Origin: a bacterium
GTDB taxonomy: Bacteria > DYJV01 > JALVYZ01
Assembly: GCA_027037705.1 (NCBI GenBank)
Contig: JALVYZ010000290.1
Coordinates: 1-8,995, forward strand
DNA: 8,995 nucleotides
Direction of reading: 5' to 3'
The position numbers were made by a program, and so were the translations under genes. This document shows, piece after piece, positions 372-8,995 of the stretch (its first letter is position 1; each line of letters begins with the position of its first letter). The notes under the pieces are model-generated. The model did not search any database. It saw nothing but the letters and a program-made list of their open reading frames with translations, and was not told where the DNA came from.

Positions 372-2177
372 TTATTGTATTACATTTAAATATTCTTCTA
401 AAAGGGATAAAAAAAGGTTTATATTAGTGTAATCAATATCCCCAATATTTGCTATTCTAAAAGTATTAAATTTTTCAACTTTACCTGGATATATAGTAAA
501 TCCTTTTCGATAAAAATAATCATGCAAAAGTTCAAATTCTATTCCTTCTGGTAAAATTATTGAAGTAATAATACGTGAATGATTCTCATCATCCACTAAA
601 TATTTTAACCCAAGTTTTTTTAGCCCTTTGGTTAATGTGTCCCATGATTTTGAATATCGTTTATATCTGTTTTCTATACCTTCTTCTTTTAATTCATTTA
701 TTGCCTGTTTTAATGCATAAAATGTCTGAACTGGTGGAGTGAATCTCATTTGCTTTGTTTTCATAAAATATTCATATTGTGTATATAAGTTAAAATAAAA
801 ACTTCTCTTAATTTTTTTTGTCTTTATTAATGATTTTTTCTTTGCTACTACAATACCTATACCTGCCATTCCTTGAATATTTTTATTACTACTTGAAATT
901 AAATACGAAATATTTTGTTTTTTCATATCTATTGGAACTGCTCCAAAAGAACTCATAGCATCTACAATTAATTCTAATCTAAACTTTTTAGACAATTCTC
1001 CAATTTTATCAAGATTTGTTAAAAGTCCTGTTGTTGTTTCATTATGCACAACTGCCAAATGAGAAATATCATTATTTTTTTTAATTATATTTTCTAATTT
1101 ATCTAAATTTATAGGTTCTATTGGAGAAGAAATAAATTCAATATAATTAACATTAAATACATCAGCTATTTCACACATTCTCTTTCCATAAGGTCCATTA
1201 TTTACTATGAGCATTTTTTTGTTATAAGGAATTGATGAGGTAATAACTGCTTCAATAGCACCAGTACCACTACCACCAAAAAAGATTGTAGTGTATTCAT
1301 CAGTATTTGCAACAAATTTTGTTATTTCATTAGAGCAATATTCCATAATTTCTCCAAACTCAGCTTCTCTCGGACAAATATCTGGAACAACTTGAGCTAA
1401 TTTCACAGAATCTGTTGTAGTTGCAGGTCCTGGGTTTAATAATATATTTTTTTTAATAAATAAACTTTTTGCTTTTATTTTAGGGAATATCTCTTCTTTT
1501 GCTTTTTTTAAATGGTTCTTATCATCAATTTCGCACCATAAAAGATCCTCTACCTTTTTAACAAAAATTCCTCTTTTTTTTGAGGACTCTACTAAAATAT
1601 ATTCATAATCTATCTTTTTATTATTCATCTTTTCATAAATTCTACATAAATTTTTATATCTGTTATAAGAAATTTTTGAAATTCCTACTAACTCGCAACA
1701 AATATTTTTTAAAAGATTCCTATTTTTAGAGACATTTATAAGATTAAAACTATCATCTATTTCAATAAAAACCTCATCTCCTGAATTAGTTAGATTACTT
1801 GCTAAAATAACATCATCCTTTTTATTGAAAATCAAATGCTTTAAAGCATCCCTTTCATAAAGTAAATCTGATTCAAGAAGTAAAAAATCTTCTTTTATAT
1901 AATTTTTTAAAATATAAAGTGTTTCCATAGATGAAGTATTTGCATAATTCACATTTTTTACAGTTTTTATCCCTTCATTTTTTGCAAAATCATCATAAAA
2001 TTCACTTAAATATCCTGTTCCAATAATAATATTTTTTATACCAAAACTTCTTAAGTTTTCCACACTTCTTTTTATTAAACTAATTCCTTCTATCTCTATA
2101 AAACCTTTTGGTTTGTTAATTGTTATTTCTTTTAATCTACTACCTAAACCTGCTGCTAAAACTACTGCTAATTTCAT
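372..2177 (-). CDS. pntC: Bifunctional CTP:2-aminoethylphosphonate cytidylyltransferase / 2-aminoethylphosphonate transaminase
   Basis: A 601-residue two-domain protein for the last two AEP steps, presumably cytoplasmic. Residues 1 to about 235 form a LicC/PntC-like nucleotidyltransferase. LAAGLGSRL (7-15) and KPKG (22-25) bind the nucleotide, D104 in ESDLL is the likely first metal ligand and D218 in EIDD the second. Residues about 240-601 are a PhnW-like class V aminotransferase: it opens with LLNPGPATTT (246-255), VDAMSSFG (405-412) supplies the Asp under the PLP ring, and K432 in SSNKNIQG is the expected Schiff-base lysine. The transaminase interconverts phosphonoacetaldehyde and AEP; the other half would charge AEP to CMP-AEP for transfer to a glycan or lipid. 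I recall a fusion of this order characterised from Treponema denticola. The start codon lies in an ATGA overlap with the methyltransferase stop, with GGAG 5 nt upstream, which implies translational coupling. It is the last gene of the operon. Confidence 0.9.
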   Translation of the reverse strand: MKLAVVLAAGLGSRLKEITINKPKGFIEIEGISLIKRSVENLRSFGIKNIIIGTGYLSEFYDDFAKNEGIKTVKNVNYANTSSMETLYILKNYIKEDFLLLESDLLYERDALKHLIFNKKDDVILASNLTNSGDEVFIEIDDSFNLINVSKNRNLLKNICCELVGISKISYNRYKNLCRIYEKMNNKKIDYEYILVESSKKRGIFVKKVEDLLWCEIDDKNHLKKAKEEIFPKIKAKSLFIKKNILLNPGPATTTDSVKLAQVVPDICPREAEFGEIMEYCSNEITKFVANTDEYTTIFFGGSGTGAIEAVITSSIPYNKKMLIVNNGPYGKRMCEIADVFNVNYIEFISSPIEPINLDKLENIIKKNNDISHLAVVHNETTTGLLTNLDKIGELSKKFRLELIVDAMSSFGAVPIDMKKQNISYLISSSNKNIQGMAGIGIVVAKKKSLIKTKKIKRSFYFNLYTQYEYFMKTKQMRFTPPVQTFYALKQAINELKEEGIENRYKRYSKSWDTLTKGLKKLGLKYLVDDENHSRIITSIILPEGIEFELLHDYFYRKGFTIYPGKVEKFNTFRIANIGDIDYTNINLFLSLLEEYLNVIQ

Positions 2178-2857
2178 TGTATCTCCATAATAACATTAAA
2201 CCTAAGTTCAGCATTTCCATAATTTTTAAAGGTATGATTAAATATTTTTATTTTTAAATTATATCGCTTGGCAATATTGTAAAAAAAATTTTTATCATAA
2301 AATAAATGATCTAATCCTTTATATTTTCTTAAATATTCTTTTCCCATTTTCTTCATTCTTATTTTATGGTATTCATTTTTTTTAGAAATATCATTAATAT
2401 CAAATATTCCTATCTTTTTCCGAGATTTTTTAATCATTTTTTTTATAACTGTTTTCGAATATTCCAAATTAGGAAAATAATTAAAAGTACCATTACTTAT
2501 TACAATATCGTATTTTTTTGTTGTATCTAAATATACAGCTTCTTTAACTTCGAAATTTCCGTGAACAATAATTTTTTTTGCCAAATTTATTAATGGAATT
2601 GAATAATCTATGCCGCCTACTTTATAATTTTTTAAAGCTAATGGAAATAGGAAAGCTCCAGCCCCACAACCTACTTCAAATATTGTATCGTTATTTTCAA
2701 TACCTAAAATGTTATAAAAATTTGAGGAATATTCTAACCACTCATCTACATCAAGTTTCCCTGGTCCACTATCAAAGCCATCAACTTTTATTAACATTTC
2801 TAAAATATATTTATTTACTCTATCTTGATTATTCCAAATATTTTTCCAGTTATTCAT
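2174..2857 (-). CDS. SAM-dependent class I methyltransferase embedded in the AEP operon
   Basis: A 227-residue soluble Rossmann-fold methyltransferase. Motif I is EVGCGAG (61-67), the acidic residue binding the SAM ribose is probably D84 in GGIDYS, and YDIVISNGTFNYFP (116-129) is the motif IV region. No membrane segment or signal peptide is seen. It sits between the decarboxylase and the pntC-transaminase fusion. Its SD-like GAGGG overlaps the TGA of the upstream gene, about 10 nt before the ATG, and its own stop overlaps the next start by 4 nt, so it is clearly co-translated with the pathway. The acceptor is unknown. The context suggests a phosphonate intermediate (amino group of AEP, or an oxygen of the phosphonate), possibly after CMP activation, but a sugar hydroxyl of the decorated glycan is also possible. 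The WKNIW start and the RFNV element near the C-terminus remind me of small methyltransferases in surface-polysaccharide loci; that is weak recollection, not proof. Confidence 0.82.
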   Translation of the reverse strand: MNNWKNIWNNQDRVNKYILEMLIKVDGFDSGPGKLDVDEWLEYSSNFYNILGIENNDTIFEVGCGAGAFLFPLALKNYKVGGIDYSIPLINLAKKIIVHGNFEVKEAVYLDTTKKYDIVISNGTFNYFPNLEYSKTVIKKMIKKSRKKIGIFDINDISKKNEYHKIRMKKMGKEYLRKYKGLDHLFYDKNFFYNIAKRYNLKIKIFNHTFKNYGNAELRFNVIMEIQ

Positions 2858-2870
2858 TTTTTATTTACCC

Positions 2871-3926
2871 TCAAATTTTATTTATTAAAATAGCATTAAC
2901 AGGTGGTCTTGGAGTGGTCTCATCATAAGAACATTTTATATGTAAAAAATTAATTCCCTTTTTTAATTTTAATAAAGTATTCTTAAATTCATCTAAAGTC
3001 AAAATTGTATTTTCCACAACTTTAAAACCACTGTATTTAGCAATTCCTATATAATTTACATGATTTTGATATGTAGCCTGTCCTCCTGTAGACTTATTTG
3101 ACTCATTATCAAATAAAATATACGTTAAATCTAAATTTTTATATCTTCCAGCAGTTGTCAGTCCTCCCATATGCATAACAAACTCAGCATCTCCTCCCAA
3201 AACTACAACTTTTTTTCCTGTTTTTGCCATTCCTACACCAAGACTCAATGCTCCTCCCATATTTCCTACCATATAAAAATTTTTTGTATTTTTCATAAAT
3301 GAATACATCTCTCGTGATGTATTTCCAGTTGTTCCAATAAAGATAGTATCACTATTTTTATATAATTCATTTAAAATTTTTAAAAATTTACTCCTTGGTA
3401 TATATCCCAAATGTAACTTATAAGGTTCTCTAAGTTCGACCCTACTAAATGTGTCTTTTTTTAAAATATTTATTATAAATGAACTATTAGACTTTATTAA
3501 TTGTTGAATTGCTTTATTTAAATTAGATTGATCAAGTATCTCAAATTCATATCCATAAGCACTTATCAATTGTGGTAAATTTGTTGCTAAATGTTTATGC
3601 TGAACTTCACTATCCCCTTCTTTATAAGTCCTCCAACTAATTATTATAGGAAAAGTTATTTTATATGGTAAAAGTAAGCTTGTTATACAACTTCCCATAT
3701 TTGTAAGACCACTTGATTGTGCTATTACTATAGGTTTTGCTCCTCCAATTTTTAATCCTGCTGCGACACTACATGCTACAGCCTCACTTGCACAGGGCAC
3801 ATACTCAATTTGTTCATTATTTATAACACCATTTATTAAATATTTTGCAAAACTACACGGTACTGCACAAATATGAGAAAAACCTTCTTTTATCAAATTA
3901 TCTACAAATTTTTTAGTATCCAGCAT
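2871..3926 (-). CDS. aepY: Phosphonopyruvate decarboxylase
   Basis: A thiamine-diphosphate enzyme that decarboxylates phosphonopyruvate to phosphonoacetaldehyde. This irreversible step pulls the unfavourable PEP mutase reaction forward. At 351 residues it is slightly shorter than many family members (about 370-400). The N-terminal pyrimidine domain contains E48 in ASEAVA, the expected cofactor-activating Glu, followed by QSSGLTNMGS (70-79). The C-terminal PP domain has GGDAEFVMHMGG (244-255) then FDNESNKSTGGQ (272-283), the TPP/Mg site, and ends with the family-typical TTPRPPV (337-343). In the usual GDG of the TPP motif the last Gly is Ala247 here. The gene begins immediately after the aepX stop (TAA then ATG, no gap), and the methyltransferase starts 13 nt after its own stop. 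A sulfopyruvate decarboxylase-like role is less likely given the PEP mutase beside it. Confidence 0.92.
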   Translation of the reverse strand: MLDTKKFVDNLIKEGFSHICAVPCSFAKYLINGVINNEQIEYVPCASEAVACSVAAGLKIGGAKPIVIAQSSGLTNMGSCITSLLLPYKITFPIIISWRTYKEGDSEVQHKHLATNLPQLISAYGYEFEILDQSNLNKAIQQLIKSNSSFIINILKKDTFSRVELREPYKLHLGYIPRSKFLKILNELYKNSDTIFIGTTGNTSREMYSFMKNTKNFYMVGNMGGALSLGVGMAKTGKKVVVLGGDAEFVMHMGGLTTAGRYKNLDLTYILFDNESNKSTGGQATYQNHVNYIGIAKYSGFKVVENTILTLDEFKNTLLKLKKGINFLHIKCSYDETTPRPPVNAILINKI

Positions 3927-5216
3927 TTATCTTGTCCCGGGAATCAAATCTAATATTTTTTTAATTGGCATACAATACTTTTCTGCTTCAAAACTTCTTT
4001 TATTTTTTAAAATTATTTCTGCTACTTTTTTCATCCCAGGATATGCAGATCTCAACATATGATTAGCATATATTACTATATTAACACCAACTTTTTCAAA
4101 CTCATCAATTCTAATTTTATTAAAACTTGTTGGTACTACTACTATAGGCGTTATACTATCTTTTTCTCTAAATCTATTTATAAATTCAAAAATCTCATCA
4201 GGATCTTTTTTTCTTGAATGTATCATTATACCATCTGCACCAGCTTTTACATAAGCAAAAGCTCTCTTTAATGCATCATCAATACCTTTTTCAAGGATAA
4301 AACTTTCTATTCTTGCTATTATCATAAAATCTTCAGTTATTTGGGCATTTTTACCTGCTTTGATTTTAGCACAAAAATTTTCAATACTATCTTGAGTTTG
4401 GTTGGCTTCTGTACCTAATAGAGAATTCTTTTTTAGACCTTTTTTATCTTCAATTATTATTGCACTTACTCCTATTCTTTCTAAAGTTTTTACTTTGTAT
4501 GGAAAATGTTCAATTCTTCCCCCAGTATCTCCATCAAATATTAATGGCTTTGTAGTAACTTCAAATATTTCATTTATTGTATTTAACCGAGAAGTTAAAT
4601 CTACAGCTTCAATATCTGGTTTTCCTTTTGCTGTAGAATCAGTTAGTGAACTACTCCACATTCCGTCAAAACTATCATTATCTTCTGTCTTTGTATATTC
4701 AACAATTAGAGCGCTTAAAGCATTATGAACTTCCATTATTTTTAAAATTTTTTTTACATTTAATAAATATCTCAAACGTGAAAGTCTCATATTAGTAGTA
4801 ATGCCAATTCTTTTTAATTCATCCTTTAATTTTAAATCTTTTATATCTTTAGAATATGGAATTTCAATAAGCTCTCCATTCCATTTTTTTAATAAATTTA
4901 TAACCTCTTCTCTGTATTTCTTTTTATAATTATATTTCCAATCATCACCATGAACTACGTAATCAGGTTTAAGTGTTAAAAGATTTTTTCTATAACTTGC
5001 ACTATCTTGTGGGATTACTTTGCTTACAAATCTTAAATTTTCTACTACAGCTTTTCTTTTTTCAAAATCTAAATAAGGAACATCATTAAGCTCAGCACAT
5101 GCTTTGTCTGTATATAATCCAACAATAACCTCCCCTAACTCATAAGCTTTTTTTAATACCTTTATATGTCCAGCATGTAAAAAGTCTGCAATTAGTGCAA
5201 CATAAACTTTTTTCAT
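3927..5216 (-). CDS. aepX: Phosphoenolpyruvate mutase with N-terminal nucleotidyltransferase domain
   Basis: A 429-residue fusion that starts the phosphonate pathway. Residues 1 to about 135 are an HxGH-superfamily nucleotidyltransferase of the TagD/RfaE type: an ADFLHAGH segment (10-17) holds the HAGH signature, followed by a TDK (36-38) and a VVHGDDW block (87-93). Residues about 145-405 are PEP mutase, of the isocitrate lyase superfamily, which rearranges PEP to phosphonopyruvate and makes the C-P bond. MWSSSLTDS (186-194) is the substrate loop, DGDTGG (228-233) the metal-binding loop, EDKKGLKKNS (256-265) the signature that separates true PEP mutases from relatives, and RIES (302-305) an active-site element. 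It is the first gene of the operon. The upstream SD is weak: the best candidate is GGG about 11 nt before ATG. Such N-terminal fusions occur in other PEP mutases; the substrate of the N-terminal domain is not known to me. Confidence 0.93.
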   Translation of the reverse strand: MKKVYVALIADFLHAGHIKVLKKAYELGEVIVGLYTDKACAELNDVPYLDFEKRKAVVENLRFVSKVIPQDSASYRKNLLTLKPDYVVHGDDWKYNYKKKYREEVINLLKKWNGELIEIPYSKDIKDLKLKDELKRIGITTNMRLSRLRYLLNVKKILKIMEVHNALSALIVEYTKTEDNDSFDGMWSSSLTDSTAKGKPDIEAVDLTSRLNTINEIFEVTTKPLIFDGDTGGRIEHFPYKVKTLERIGVSAIIIEDKKGLKKNSLLGTEANQTQDSIENFCAKIKAGKNAQITEDFMIIARIESFILEKGIDDALKRAFAYVKAGADGIMIHSRKKDPDEIFEFINRFREKDSITPIVVVPTSFNKIRIDEFEKVGVNIVIYANHMLRSAYPGMKKVAEIILKNKRSFEAEKYCMPIKKILDLIPGTR

Positions 5217-6518: not shown

Positions 6519-6592
6519 TGCGCCCAGAGGGAGTTGAACCCCCAACCTCCAGATCCGTAGTCTGGCGCTCTATCCAGTTGAGCTATGGGCGC
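6519..6592 (-). tRNA. tRNA-Arg, anticodon ACG
   Basis: A complete 74-nt cloverleaf reads on the minus strand. The acceptor stem is GCGCCCA/TGGGCGC, the D arm GCTC...GAGC, the anticodon stem CCAGA/TCTGG with loop CTACGGA (anticodon ACG, read as inosine-CG for CGU/CGC/CGA), a 5-nt variable region, and T stem GGGGG/CCCTC with loop TTCAACT. One T-stem pair is G-U. The discriminator is A. The following bases are TTC, so the CCA end is not encoded and must be added by CCA-adding enzyme. The identity implies a TadA deaminase elsewhere in the genome. It stands alone, with no other tRNA adjacent, between the phosphonate and fucose genes. Confidence 0.97.
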
Positions 6593-6768: not shown

Positions 6769-7950
6769 ATGAGAAAAAAAGCTTTAATTACTGGCATTAC
6801 AGGGCAAGATGGAGCTTATTTAGCAGAGTTATTATTGAACAAAGGTTATGAAGTTCATGGAATAAAAAGAAGAAGTTCTCTTTTTAACACTGAAAGAATA
6901 GACCATTTATATAAAGATCCCCATGAGGAAAATGTTAATTTTTTCCTACATTATGGAGAGATGACTGATAGTTTGAATTTAACAGCAATTATTCAAAAAA
7001 TCCAACCTGATGAAATTTATAATTTAGCTGCTCAATCTCATGTTGCAGTATCATTTGAACAACCAGAATATACTGCAAATGCTGACGGAATAGGGATACT
7101 AAGAATCCTTGAAGCTGTTAGATTGCTTGGATTAAAAGATAAAACAAAAATATATCAAGCTTCTACTTCTGAACTTTATGGTAAAGTAAAAGAAATTCCT
7201 CAAAATGAAAAGACACCTTTTTATCCAAGAAGTCCTTATGGTGTAGCAAAATTATATGCCTACTGGATAACAGTGAATTATAGAGAAGCTTATGGTATGT
7301 TTGCTTGTAATGGAATTCTTTTTAACCATGAATCACCAATTAGAGGAGAAACATTTGTTACAAGGAAAATTACAAGAGGAGCAGCAAGAATTTTATTGGG
7401 ACTTGATAAAAAGCTTTATCTTGGGAATTTAAATGCTAAAAGGGATTGGGGGCATGCAAAAGATTATGTAGAAGGGATGTGGCTTATATTACAGCAAGAT
7501 GAACCAGATGATTATGTACTGGCAACAGGTAAAACAACAGAAGTTAGGGAATTTGTAAGAATGGTTTTTGCTGAATTAGGAGTAGAAATTGAATTTAAAG
7601 GTAAAGGAGTTGATGAAAAAGGAGTTATTGTAAATGTAGAATTAGAAATTTTGAATTCTAAATTAGAAAATATCGGGATAGATAAAAATATAATTAAAAA
7701 TATAAAATCACAAGTTCAAAATCTTTTAGGAAAAGTTGTGGTTGAAGTAGATCCAAGATATTTTAGACCAGCTGAAGTTGATATACTTTTAGGAGATGCC
7801 ACAAAAGCAAGAAAAAAACTTGGATGGAAGCCAAAACATACTGTTAAAGAACTGGTGAAAGAAATGGTAGTATTCGATCTTGAAAAAAATTATAGAGAAT
7901 TATTACTTAAAAATTATGGGATTGAATTGCCAAAAAGTTGTGAATTGTAA
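6769..7950 (+). CDS. gmd: GDP-mannose 4,6-dehydratase
   Basis: A cytoplasmic short-chain dehydrogenase that converts GDP-D-mannose to GDP-4-keto-6-deoxymannose using a bound NADP cofactor. This is the first step to GDP-L-fucose and related 6-deoxysugars. The Rossmann motif GITGQDG is at residues 9-15, and the catalytic set appears as T133/S134/E135 in STSELYG and Y157-x3-K161 in SPYGVAK. The Gmd-typical [16 protein letters not shown] block is at 186-201 and the family C-terminal [12 protein letters not shown] at 327-338. The protein has 393 residues against about 373 for the E. coli enzyme. The extra length is mostly one Lys/Asn/Ile-rich insertion at about 290-322, between the GVDEKG element and VDPRYFRP. 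It is followed after 63 nt by fcl on the same strand, as in most GDP-fucose operons. Confidence 0.97.
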
Positions 7951-8013
7951 ATAAAAAATGTTAGTTAATTATGGAAAAATTACTATATTTAATAAATTTT
8001 AGTGAGGCTAAAA

Positions 8014-8995
8014 ATGATTCAGCAAAAAAATTTTTTACTAATTACAGGTTCTTGTCCCCCTATTACTGCTAACAGTAAAATTGTTGTATTCGGCGGTACT
8101 GGACTTGTAGGTAGTGCAATATTAAAAAAACTTGTAGAGAAAGGTTATAAAAATATATTAGCAACTTATAATAAAACTAATCCTGAAAAAATATATTTAC
8201 AGATTACTGATTACAGAGGAAAGATTATATTTATTCAAGTTGATCTTCTATCTCAACAAGCTGTTGCTGATTTTTTTAAAAAATACAAACCAGAATATGT
8301 TTTTCTTGCTGCTGCAAAGGTCGGAGGAATATTAGCAAATAATATATATAGAGCAGATTTTATTTATGAAAACTTACAAATTCAAAATAATGTGATATAT
8401 AATGCTTATAAATATGGAATTAAAAAGCTGTTATTTCTTGGTAGTAGTTGTATATACCCTAAAGATTGTCCTCAGCCAATAAAAGAAGATTATTTATTAA
8501 CTGGAGAACTTGAATATACAAATGAACCTTATGCAATTGCTAAAATTGCTGGAATAAAAATGTGTGAGAGTTTTAATTTGCAATACGGAACTAATTTTAT
8601 TTCTGTAATGCCAACAAATTTATATGGACCAAATGATAACTTTGACCTTGAAACATCTCATGTTTTACCAGCGCTTTTAAGGAAAATATATCTTGGAAAA
8701 TGCTTAGAAGAAAATAATTGGGAAGCGATTAGAAAAGATTTAAATAAAATTCCTCTTGAAGGAATTGATGGAAATGCAAGTGAAGAAGATATTTTAAAAA
8801 AATTAGAAAGATATGGGGTTTCATTGGAAATTCAAAAATCAAAATCTATAATAAAAATAGAAATATGGGGGACAGGAAATCCTCTTCGGGAATTTCTTTA
8901 TGTTGATGATATGGCAGATGCTTGTATTTATATTATGGAAAAGGTTAATTTTCAAGATCTTGTTACTCAGATGTCTAAAATGCCAAATTCAAAAA
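8014..8995 (+). CDS. fcl: GDP-L-fucose synthase (long form), 3' end beyond the window
   Basis: The frame is open for 327 codons to the window edge. The enzyme epimerises and reduces GDP-4-keto-6-deoxymannose to GDP-L-fucose, using the gmd product. GGTGLVG (27-33) binds NADP(H), and the catalytic triad appears as S144/S145 in GSSCIYP and Y173-x3-K177 in [23 protein letters not shown] (199-213) and [19 protein letters not shown] (285-303) are hallmark blocks. An insertion of about 50 residues (about 229-282) is, as I recall, typical of the long form known from Bacteroidetes and relatives, so most of the protein is probably visible. The start at 8014 has GAGG 6 nt upstream. It gives about 20 residues before the first strand, and the stretch at about 49-78 is longer than in common Fcl proteins. 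There is no in-frame ATG between 8014 and the NAD motif, so this start is the best available. Confidence 0.93.

Follow-up and report, generated by a model that had tools for sequence, protein, structure and literature searches.

A predicted N-methyltransferase in a bacterial aminoethylphosphonate operon and its relatives beside PntC- and CobD-type genes

Results

The window, that is the whole 8,995-nucleotide stretch analysed, is part of a 2.05 Mb draft genome. Its minus strand holds four closely spaced genes in the order PEP mutase (PepM), phosphonopyruvate decarboxylase (Ppd), methyltransferase (MT) and a fusion of PntC with 2-aminoethylphosphonate (AEP) transaminase (AEPT). The features discussed here are as follows.

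3927..5216, minus strand: PepM with an N-terminal cytidylyltransferase-like domain (PF01467); TIGR02320, PF13714 and PF01467
2871..3926, minus strand: Ppd; TIGR03297 (8.6e-61) and operon position
2855..2872, minus strand: Shine-Dalgarno (SD)-like GAGGG on the Ppd stop codon, spacer and MT ATG
2174..2857, minus strand: MT, a class I SAM-dependent methyltransferase of 227 amino acids, predicted AEP/CMP-AEP N-methyltransferase; open reading frame, Pfam, family alignments and AlphaFold2 model
2174..2177, minus strand: ATGA start/stop overlap of MT and PntC-AEPT
372..2177, minus strand: PntC (AEP cytidylyltransferase) fused to AEPT; TIGR03301, match to 6pd1 and a conserved glutamate pair

The PepM protein scores 424 bits against TIGR02320 (cut-off 319.55) and contains EDKKGLKKNS, which fits the PepM-specific motif EDKxxxxxNS (PMC6697681) and identifies it as a true PEP mutase. 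For Ppd, TIGR03297 is the top match among all NCBIfam models at 205.9 bits, under its curated cut-off of 312.5, and the operon position supports the assignment. The PntC-AEPT fusion is above the cut-off of TIGR03301 (394.8 bits) and aligns over its whole length (residues 2-600; 593 bits, 5.8e-177) with structure 6pd1 of Tde1415, the PntC-AEPT of Treponema denticola that has been characterized biochemically and structurally (PMC6697681). By sequence, we regard the window protein as an orthologue of Tde1415. The operon also has two nucleotidyltransferase-type domains, the PF01467 CTP_transf-like domain fused to PepM (within 3927-5216) and the PF12804 PntC domain fused to AEPT. The former contains a HAGH motif, and its canonical C-terminal S/T-rich motif looks degenerate by eye.

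The junctions between the four genes are tight. The Ppd ATG directly follows the PepM stop codon (TAAATG). Ppd ends in ...AAATTTGA, and the minus strand there is TTTGAGGGTAAATAAAAAATG. The SD-like GAGGG thus shares bases with the stop codon of Ppd (TGA); the Ppd-MT spacing is 13 nt, and GAGGG lies 10 nt ahead of the MT ATG. The original prediction had placed the methyltransferase gene between the decarboxylase and pntC-transaminase genes, with its SD on the upstream stop and an ATGA overlap downstream, and the sequence bears out each of these points. The neighbors are also the ones it named, except that PntC and the transaminase are a single fused gene rather than two.

The 8,995-base contig, which ends close to the operon, shows no gene for a phosphonyl transferase to glycan or lipid. 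The other features of the window are the C-terminal part of an integrase/transposase (2-274; rve_3, 3.4e-23), cut by the window end and marking an insertion element near the end of the phosphonate operon; a tRNA-Arg with anticodon ACG (6519-6592) in the long AT-rich gap between the operon and a pair of sugar genes; and, on the opposite strand, that pair itself (6769-8994), encoding a GDP-mannose 4,6-dehydratase (gmd) and, by sequence, a GDP-fucose synthase-like protein (fcl). Both sugar genes seem longer than typical, with inserted segments.

MT exceeds the Pfam cut-offs for Methyltransf_31 (3.5e-11), Methyltransf_25 and others, and its SAM motif I reads EVGCGAG. Together with the matches of its structural model described below, these features place it in the class I SAM-dependent methyltransferase fold. 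It falls far under every cut-off of the NCBIfam equivalog methyltransferase models (UbiG, BioC, TehB, NodS etc.), the best score being 28.6 bits where 158.9 are required. These comparisons place MT only among generic class I SAM methyltransferases, and neither Pfam nor NCBIfam has a model that defines its family.

The first relative of MT was found on a Gloeothece plasmid (45% identity). The family motif GLxHLFYxKxxF, read from these two proteins, was run as a degenerate DNA pattern on 84,980 species genomes and gave 93 matches, of which four are true relatives (44-55% identity), from Campylobacterales, Caenarcaniphilales, Prochlorococcus and SAR86, and the remainder arose by chance. No relative turned up in viral contigs, by related-locus scan or by the DNA pattern, in genome contigs by alignment scan, or in a phage collection. 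A six-row family profile was then run on four genome samples. At E<=1e-20 it matched 7 of 386 genomes of the cyanobacterial phylum and 5 of 318 Campylobacteria; among 369 Gammaproteobacteria, SAR86 alone was matched (E<=1e-15), and the 71 Peptostreptococcaceae genomes gave only two matches at a generic level of about 5e-13. The comparison set has two genomes of the window's own phylum, so the survey speaks for other lineages. Judged by these counts, the family is rare yet spread across several phyla.

Besides the window MT, we collected 16 loci with relatives. Looking for homologues next to pepM had been proposed with the original prediction, and at seven loci MT does adjoin both PepM and Ppd. 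Four of these, from Campylobacteria (L175, L176, L177 and L178), have the order of the window, PepM-Ppd-MT-PntC-AEPT, with PntC and AEPT as separate genes. A Caenarcaniphilales contig (L073) carries PepM-Ppd-MT and one further gene before it ends, and in two loci of the cyanobacterial phylum (L173 and L174) the MT beside PepM, Ppd and AEPT is truncated or divergent. In L177, at the end of contig G1071:C46, the MT-adjacent PepM reads through one in-frame TAG, and the gene may be broken or may contain a sequencing error.

At five further loci (L022, L168, L169, L171 and L172), MT adjoins a fusion of a PntC-like nucleotidyltransferase and a CobD-like PLP domain; among NCBIfam models, this domain scores highest against CobD (TIGR01140, threonine-phosphate decarboxylase), under cut-off. 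By analogy, this fusion would give a CDP-activated amino alcohol phosphate, and LicD-like or CDP-alcohol phosphotransferase genes lie near several of these loci. Relatives of the CobD-like fusion in Erwinia, Priestia, Pseudonocardia and Fusobacterium have no MT neighbor. TagF-like PF04464 proteins are encoded near MT in L174, L175, L176 and L178, and polysaccharide genes surround several of the relatives.

The remaining four copies (L165, L166, L167 and L170) have no head-group genes as neighbors. We examined the PepM loci of the genomes that carry them and found no recognizable MT beside PepM. One SAR86 genome contains two of these, both divergent copies (L165 9806-10516 and L166 9168-9812), and its PepM lies elsewhere, adjoining neither.

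Overall, 12 of the 15 genomes that carry MT have PepM (TIGR02320 over cut-off), which for all four unlinked copies lies elsewhere in the genome, against a baseline of 9-13% (cyanobacterial phylum, 16/184; class Campylobacteria, 25/190). In a shared sample that excludes the two genomes used as search centers, 5/5 MT carriers and 35/367 non-carriers have PepM (Fisher p=1.1e-5, or p=1.2e-3 with the Campylobacteria carriers counted as one event); these p-values are optimistic because of relatedness within clades, and the test takes the smaller samples to be the first part of the larger ones, as the genome numbering indicates. Because MT is conserved in other phyla at 44-55% identity and its operon position recurs, its placement goes beyond chance. 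The gene could still be an unrelated housekeeping-type methyltransferase, acting on RNA, protein or a small molecule and present in the operon by accident, and its similarity to known families is indeed only generic. We consider this very unlikely given the recurring position, the co-occurrence with PepM, the tight translational coupling and the rarity of the family in all four samples.

PepM was not found in three MT genomes (G387, G595 and G661), each of which has a CobD-like fusion. As the G387 homologue is the closest relative of the window MT (55% identity), the enzyme is probably not specific for phosphonates. The original prediction had held that close homologues acting on a sugar or another non-phosphonate substrate in genomes without pepM would speak against it. 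Close homologues in genomes where no PepM was found do exist, and to that extent the objection holds, but their MT genes stand beside the PntC-like/CobD-like fusion. This makes an amine carried by a phospho- or phosphono-alkyl group, and not a sugar, the probable common substrate.

The cytidylyltransferases next to MT point to the same group. In Tde-PntC, Glu104 and Glu196 are placed so that they can form hydrogen bonds with the amine of AEP (PMC6697681), and the window PntC keeps them as E102 and E192. The pair is retained in every aligned MT-adjacent cytidylyltransferase, whether of the PntC type or the CobD-fusion type; in L187, from a genome with an unlinked MT, Glu196 is replaced by Asp. 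Since the glutamates are kept across the linked contexts, a CTP-activated amine on a phospho- or phosphonoalkyl group appears to be their common feature. Phylogenetic trees of MT, in which the backbone is weakly supported, intermix the contexts, and a single clade of PepM-adjacent MTs is rejected (p-AU 0.016); MT has therefore probably moved between phosphonate and phosphate contexts. The mixed topology fits an enzyme that would recognize the amine head group in C-P and C-O-P compounds alike.

These contexts also bear on the position of the methyl group. As an O-methyltransferase, MT would make a phosphonate methyl ester or act on phosphonoacetaldehyde or phosphonopyruvate. Many class I methyltransferases are O-methyltransferases, Pfam cannot separate the two kinds, and MT precedes PntC-AEPT in gene order. 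However, what the CobD-like contexts have in common is an amine, not phosphonoacetaldehyde, and by our own reasoning a phosphonate ester would hinder CMP activation by the PntC of the same operon; we regard O-methylation as very unlikely. Of the end products originally proposed, those made by N-methylation of AEP or CMP-AEP are favored and the O-methyl phosphonate is disfavored.

An AlphaFold2 model of MT, built from five aligned members, has a pLDDT of 86 and a pTM of 0.85. A conserved N-terminal motif with W4 and W8 lies in a low-confidence segment of this model and may be a lid. Toward the C-terminus, H184, Y187, K189 and R219 are conserved in the family. The best VIA structural matches are the dTDP-aminosugar N-methyltransferases TylM1 (Z 19.3), CalS10 and DesVI, along with KedS8 (Z 19.3-18.1 over 186-193 residues, 7-11% identity). 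Phosphoethanolamine N-methyltransferases (Z 16.7-17.2, 12-13% identity) appear among generic methyltransferases, which the top Z values exceed by only about 2. In a comparison of the MT profile with PDB sequences, the phosphoethanolamine N-methyltransferase 5wp4 was matched (6e-7), among many others. The shared fold backs the assignment of the modeled protein as an N-methyltransferase in a supportive way only and does not show its substrate or function.

The structural neighbors raise a further alternative, in which MT methylates the amine of AEP that is already attached to a glycan, or modifies another part of the glycan such as a sugar amine or hydroxyl, so that the operon would reflect co-expression only. 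The closest matches act on sugar-nucleotide amino groups, gmd and fcl are nearby in the window, and several relatives lie amid polysaccharide genes. In independent genomes, though, MT recurs between Ppd and PntC and not among glycosyltransferases, and what the linked contexts share is a cytidylyltransferase for amine-phospho groups rather than a sugar pathway. We judge this alternative unlikely.

Discussion

The sequence itself shows which genes the operon has and in what order, how they are coupled in translation, and to which family and contexts MT belongs. From this we conclude that MT is probably a SAM-dependent N-methyltransferase of a phosphonyl-tailoring pathway, predicted to act on AEP or CMP-AEP. 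The repeated synteny and the co-occurrence with PepM lend good support to the predicted methylated head group of AEP type. Against this reading stand the truncated or divergent MT of L173 and L174, the four unlinked copies and the three carrier genomes without a detected PepM.

In the proposed pathway, PepM and Ppd would produce phosphonoacetaldehyde, which the AEPT domain would aminate to AEP and the PntC domain would then activate to CMP-AEP. MT would methylate the amine of either AEP or CMP-AEP, once or several times. A phosphotransferase of the CDP-alcohol type, which in related loci is TagF- or LicD-like, would place N-methyl-AEP on a surface glycan or lipid. In this scheme we infer the amine as methyl acceptor, as well as which intermediate serves as substrate, how many methyls it receives and what finally carries the head group. 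The likeness of the model to nucleotide-sugar N-methyltransferases leans toward CMP-AEP as the substrate. N-methyl-AEP is not a substrate of PhnW (PMC10590968). A methylation that follows transamination would therefore be irreversible via PhnW, which fits a methylation step later than transamination. By blocking re-entry via PhnW, N-methylation could also shield the head group from breakdown by this route, and it could change the amine chemistry of the head group.

The window operon resembles phosphonyl-tailoring (Pnt) clusters with PntC, such as that of T. denticola Tde1415 (PMC6697681; PDB 6PD1/6PD2), in its PepM, probable Ppd, PntC-AEPT fusion and amine-contacting glutamate pair. It differs in having a predicted N-methyltransferase built in; PMC6697681 nowhere uses the word methyltransferase. 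TylM1, CalS10, DesVI and KedS8 methylate an amine on a nucleotide-activated substrate, and their substrates are nucleotide-linked sugars. The phosphoethanolamine N-methyltransferases (Plasmodium PMT, nematode and plant PEAMT) methylate aminoethyl phosphate, and MT resembles them in profile and fold at the 12-13% identity given above. The dehydrofosmidomycin pathway passes through 2-(trimethylamino)ethylphosphonate, and homologues of DfmD occur in operons with putative SAM N-methyltransferases (PMC9296572). That pathway shares with the predicted MT reaction the N-methylation of an AEP-type phosphonate and yields a secreted natural product rather than tailoring a surface.

A similar operon logic is found in the flagellin glycan operons CD0240-CD0244 of Clostridioides difficile (type A; PMC10714395) and PA1088-PA1091 of Pseudomonas aeruginosa (b-type; PMC11833859). 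There, a nucleotidyltransferase that activates a phospho group bearing an amine is encoded together with an N-methyltransferase and a TagF-like phosphotransferase. Their head group is phosphothreonine, whereas that of the window is a predicted phosphonate. In the C. difficile operon, CD0243 N-methylates phosphothreonine and is encoded beside the nucleotidyltransferase and the TagF-like transferase; when cd0243 is mutated, phosphothreonine is still added, in unmethylated form (PMC10714395). P. aeruginosa without the methyltransferase makes glycans that lack the phospho head group, which its authors read as early methylation (PMC11833859). The TagF-like PF04464 proteins near MT in four of our loci parallel CD0244, the proposed phosphothreonine transferase. 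By analogy, the CobD-fusion clusters suggest that N-methylating CMP-activated amine head groups may be a general strategy, as in the flagellin glycans of these two species. We had expected CD0243 to be a close orthologue of MT. In the 71 Peptostreptococcaceae genomes, the MT profile gave no match below 5e-13 and no close orthologue of this family; as far as tested, only the operon logic is shared with C. difficile.

Already known are PntC pathways and class I methyltransferases, the natural product N-methyl-AEP and its degradation, and a trimethyl-AEP intermediate. Sea anemones, shellfish and marine phytoplankton have all yielded N-methyl-AEP (PMC10590968, its refs 27-29), and bacteria have oxidases dedicated to its degradation, PbfB, PbfC and PbfD (PMC10590968). 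In the literature searched, which leaves most subscription journals outside and is not proof of novelty, we found no N-methyltransferase assigned to surface phosphonate tailoring and no enzyme that makes N-methyl-AEP for a bacterial surface. The MT family is a testable candidate for such a bacterial source in Prochlorococcus, SAR86, Campylobacteria and the organism of the window. More tentatively, and with somewhat less confidence than doubt, we propose that MT represents a widespread, unrecognized family of N-methyltransferases for amine-bearing phospho and phosphono head groups that partner PntC- and CobD-type cytidylyltransferases, the PepM-linked members leading to N-methylated AEP on bacterial surfaces. 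If this is true, AEP may be methylated up to a trimethyl phosphonocholine analogue, and the family, including in Prochlorococcus and SAR86, would be a source of the N-methyl-AEP that is broken down by PbfB-D in environmental bacteria.

A separate observation concerns the Campylobacteria genome G1071, which has a second PepM locus (L189, G1071:C28, 4080-10421) that also carries genes resembling those for Ppd and phosphonoacetaldehyde reductase. From its gene content, this organism may be able to make two phosphonates.
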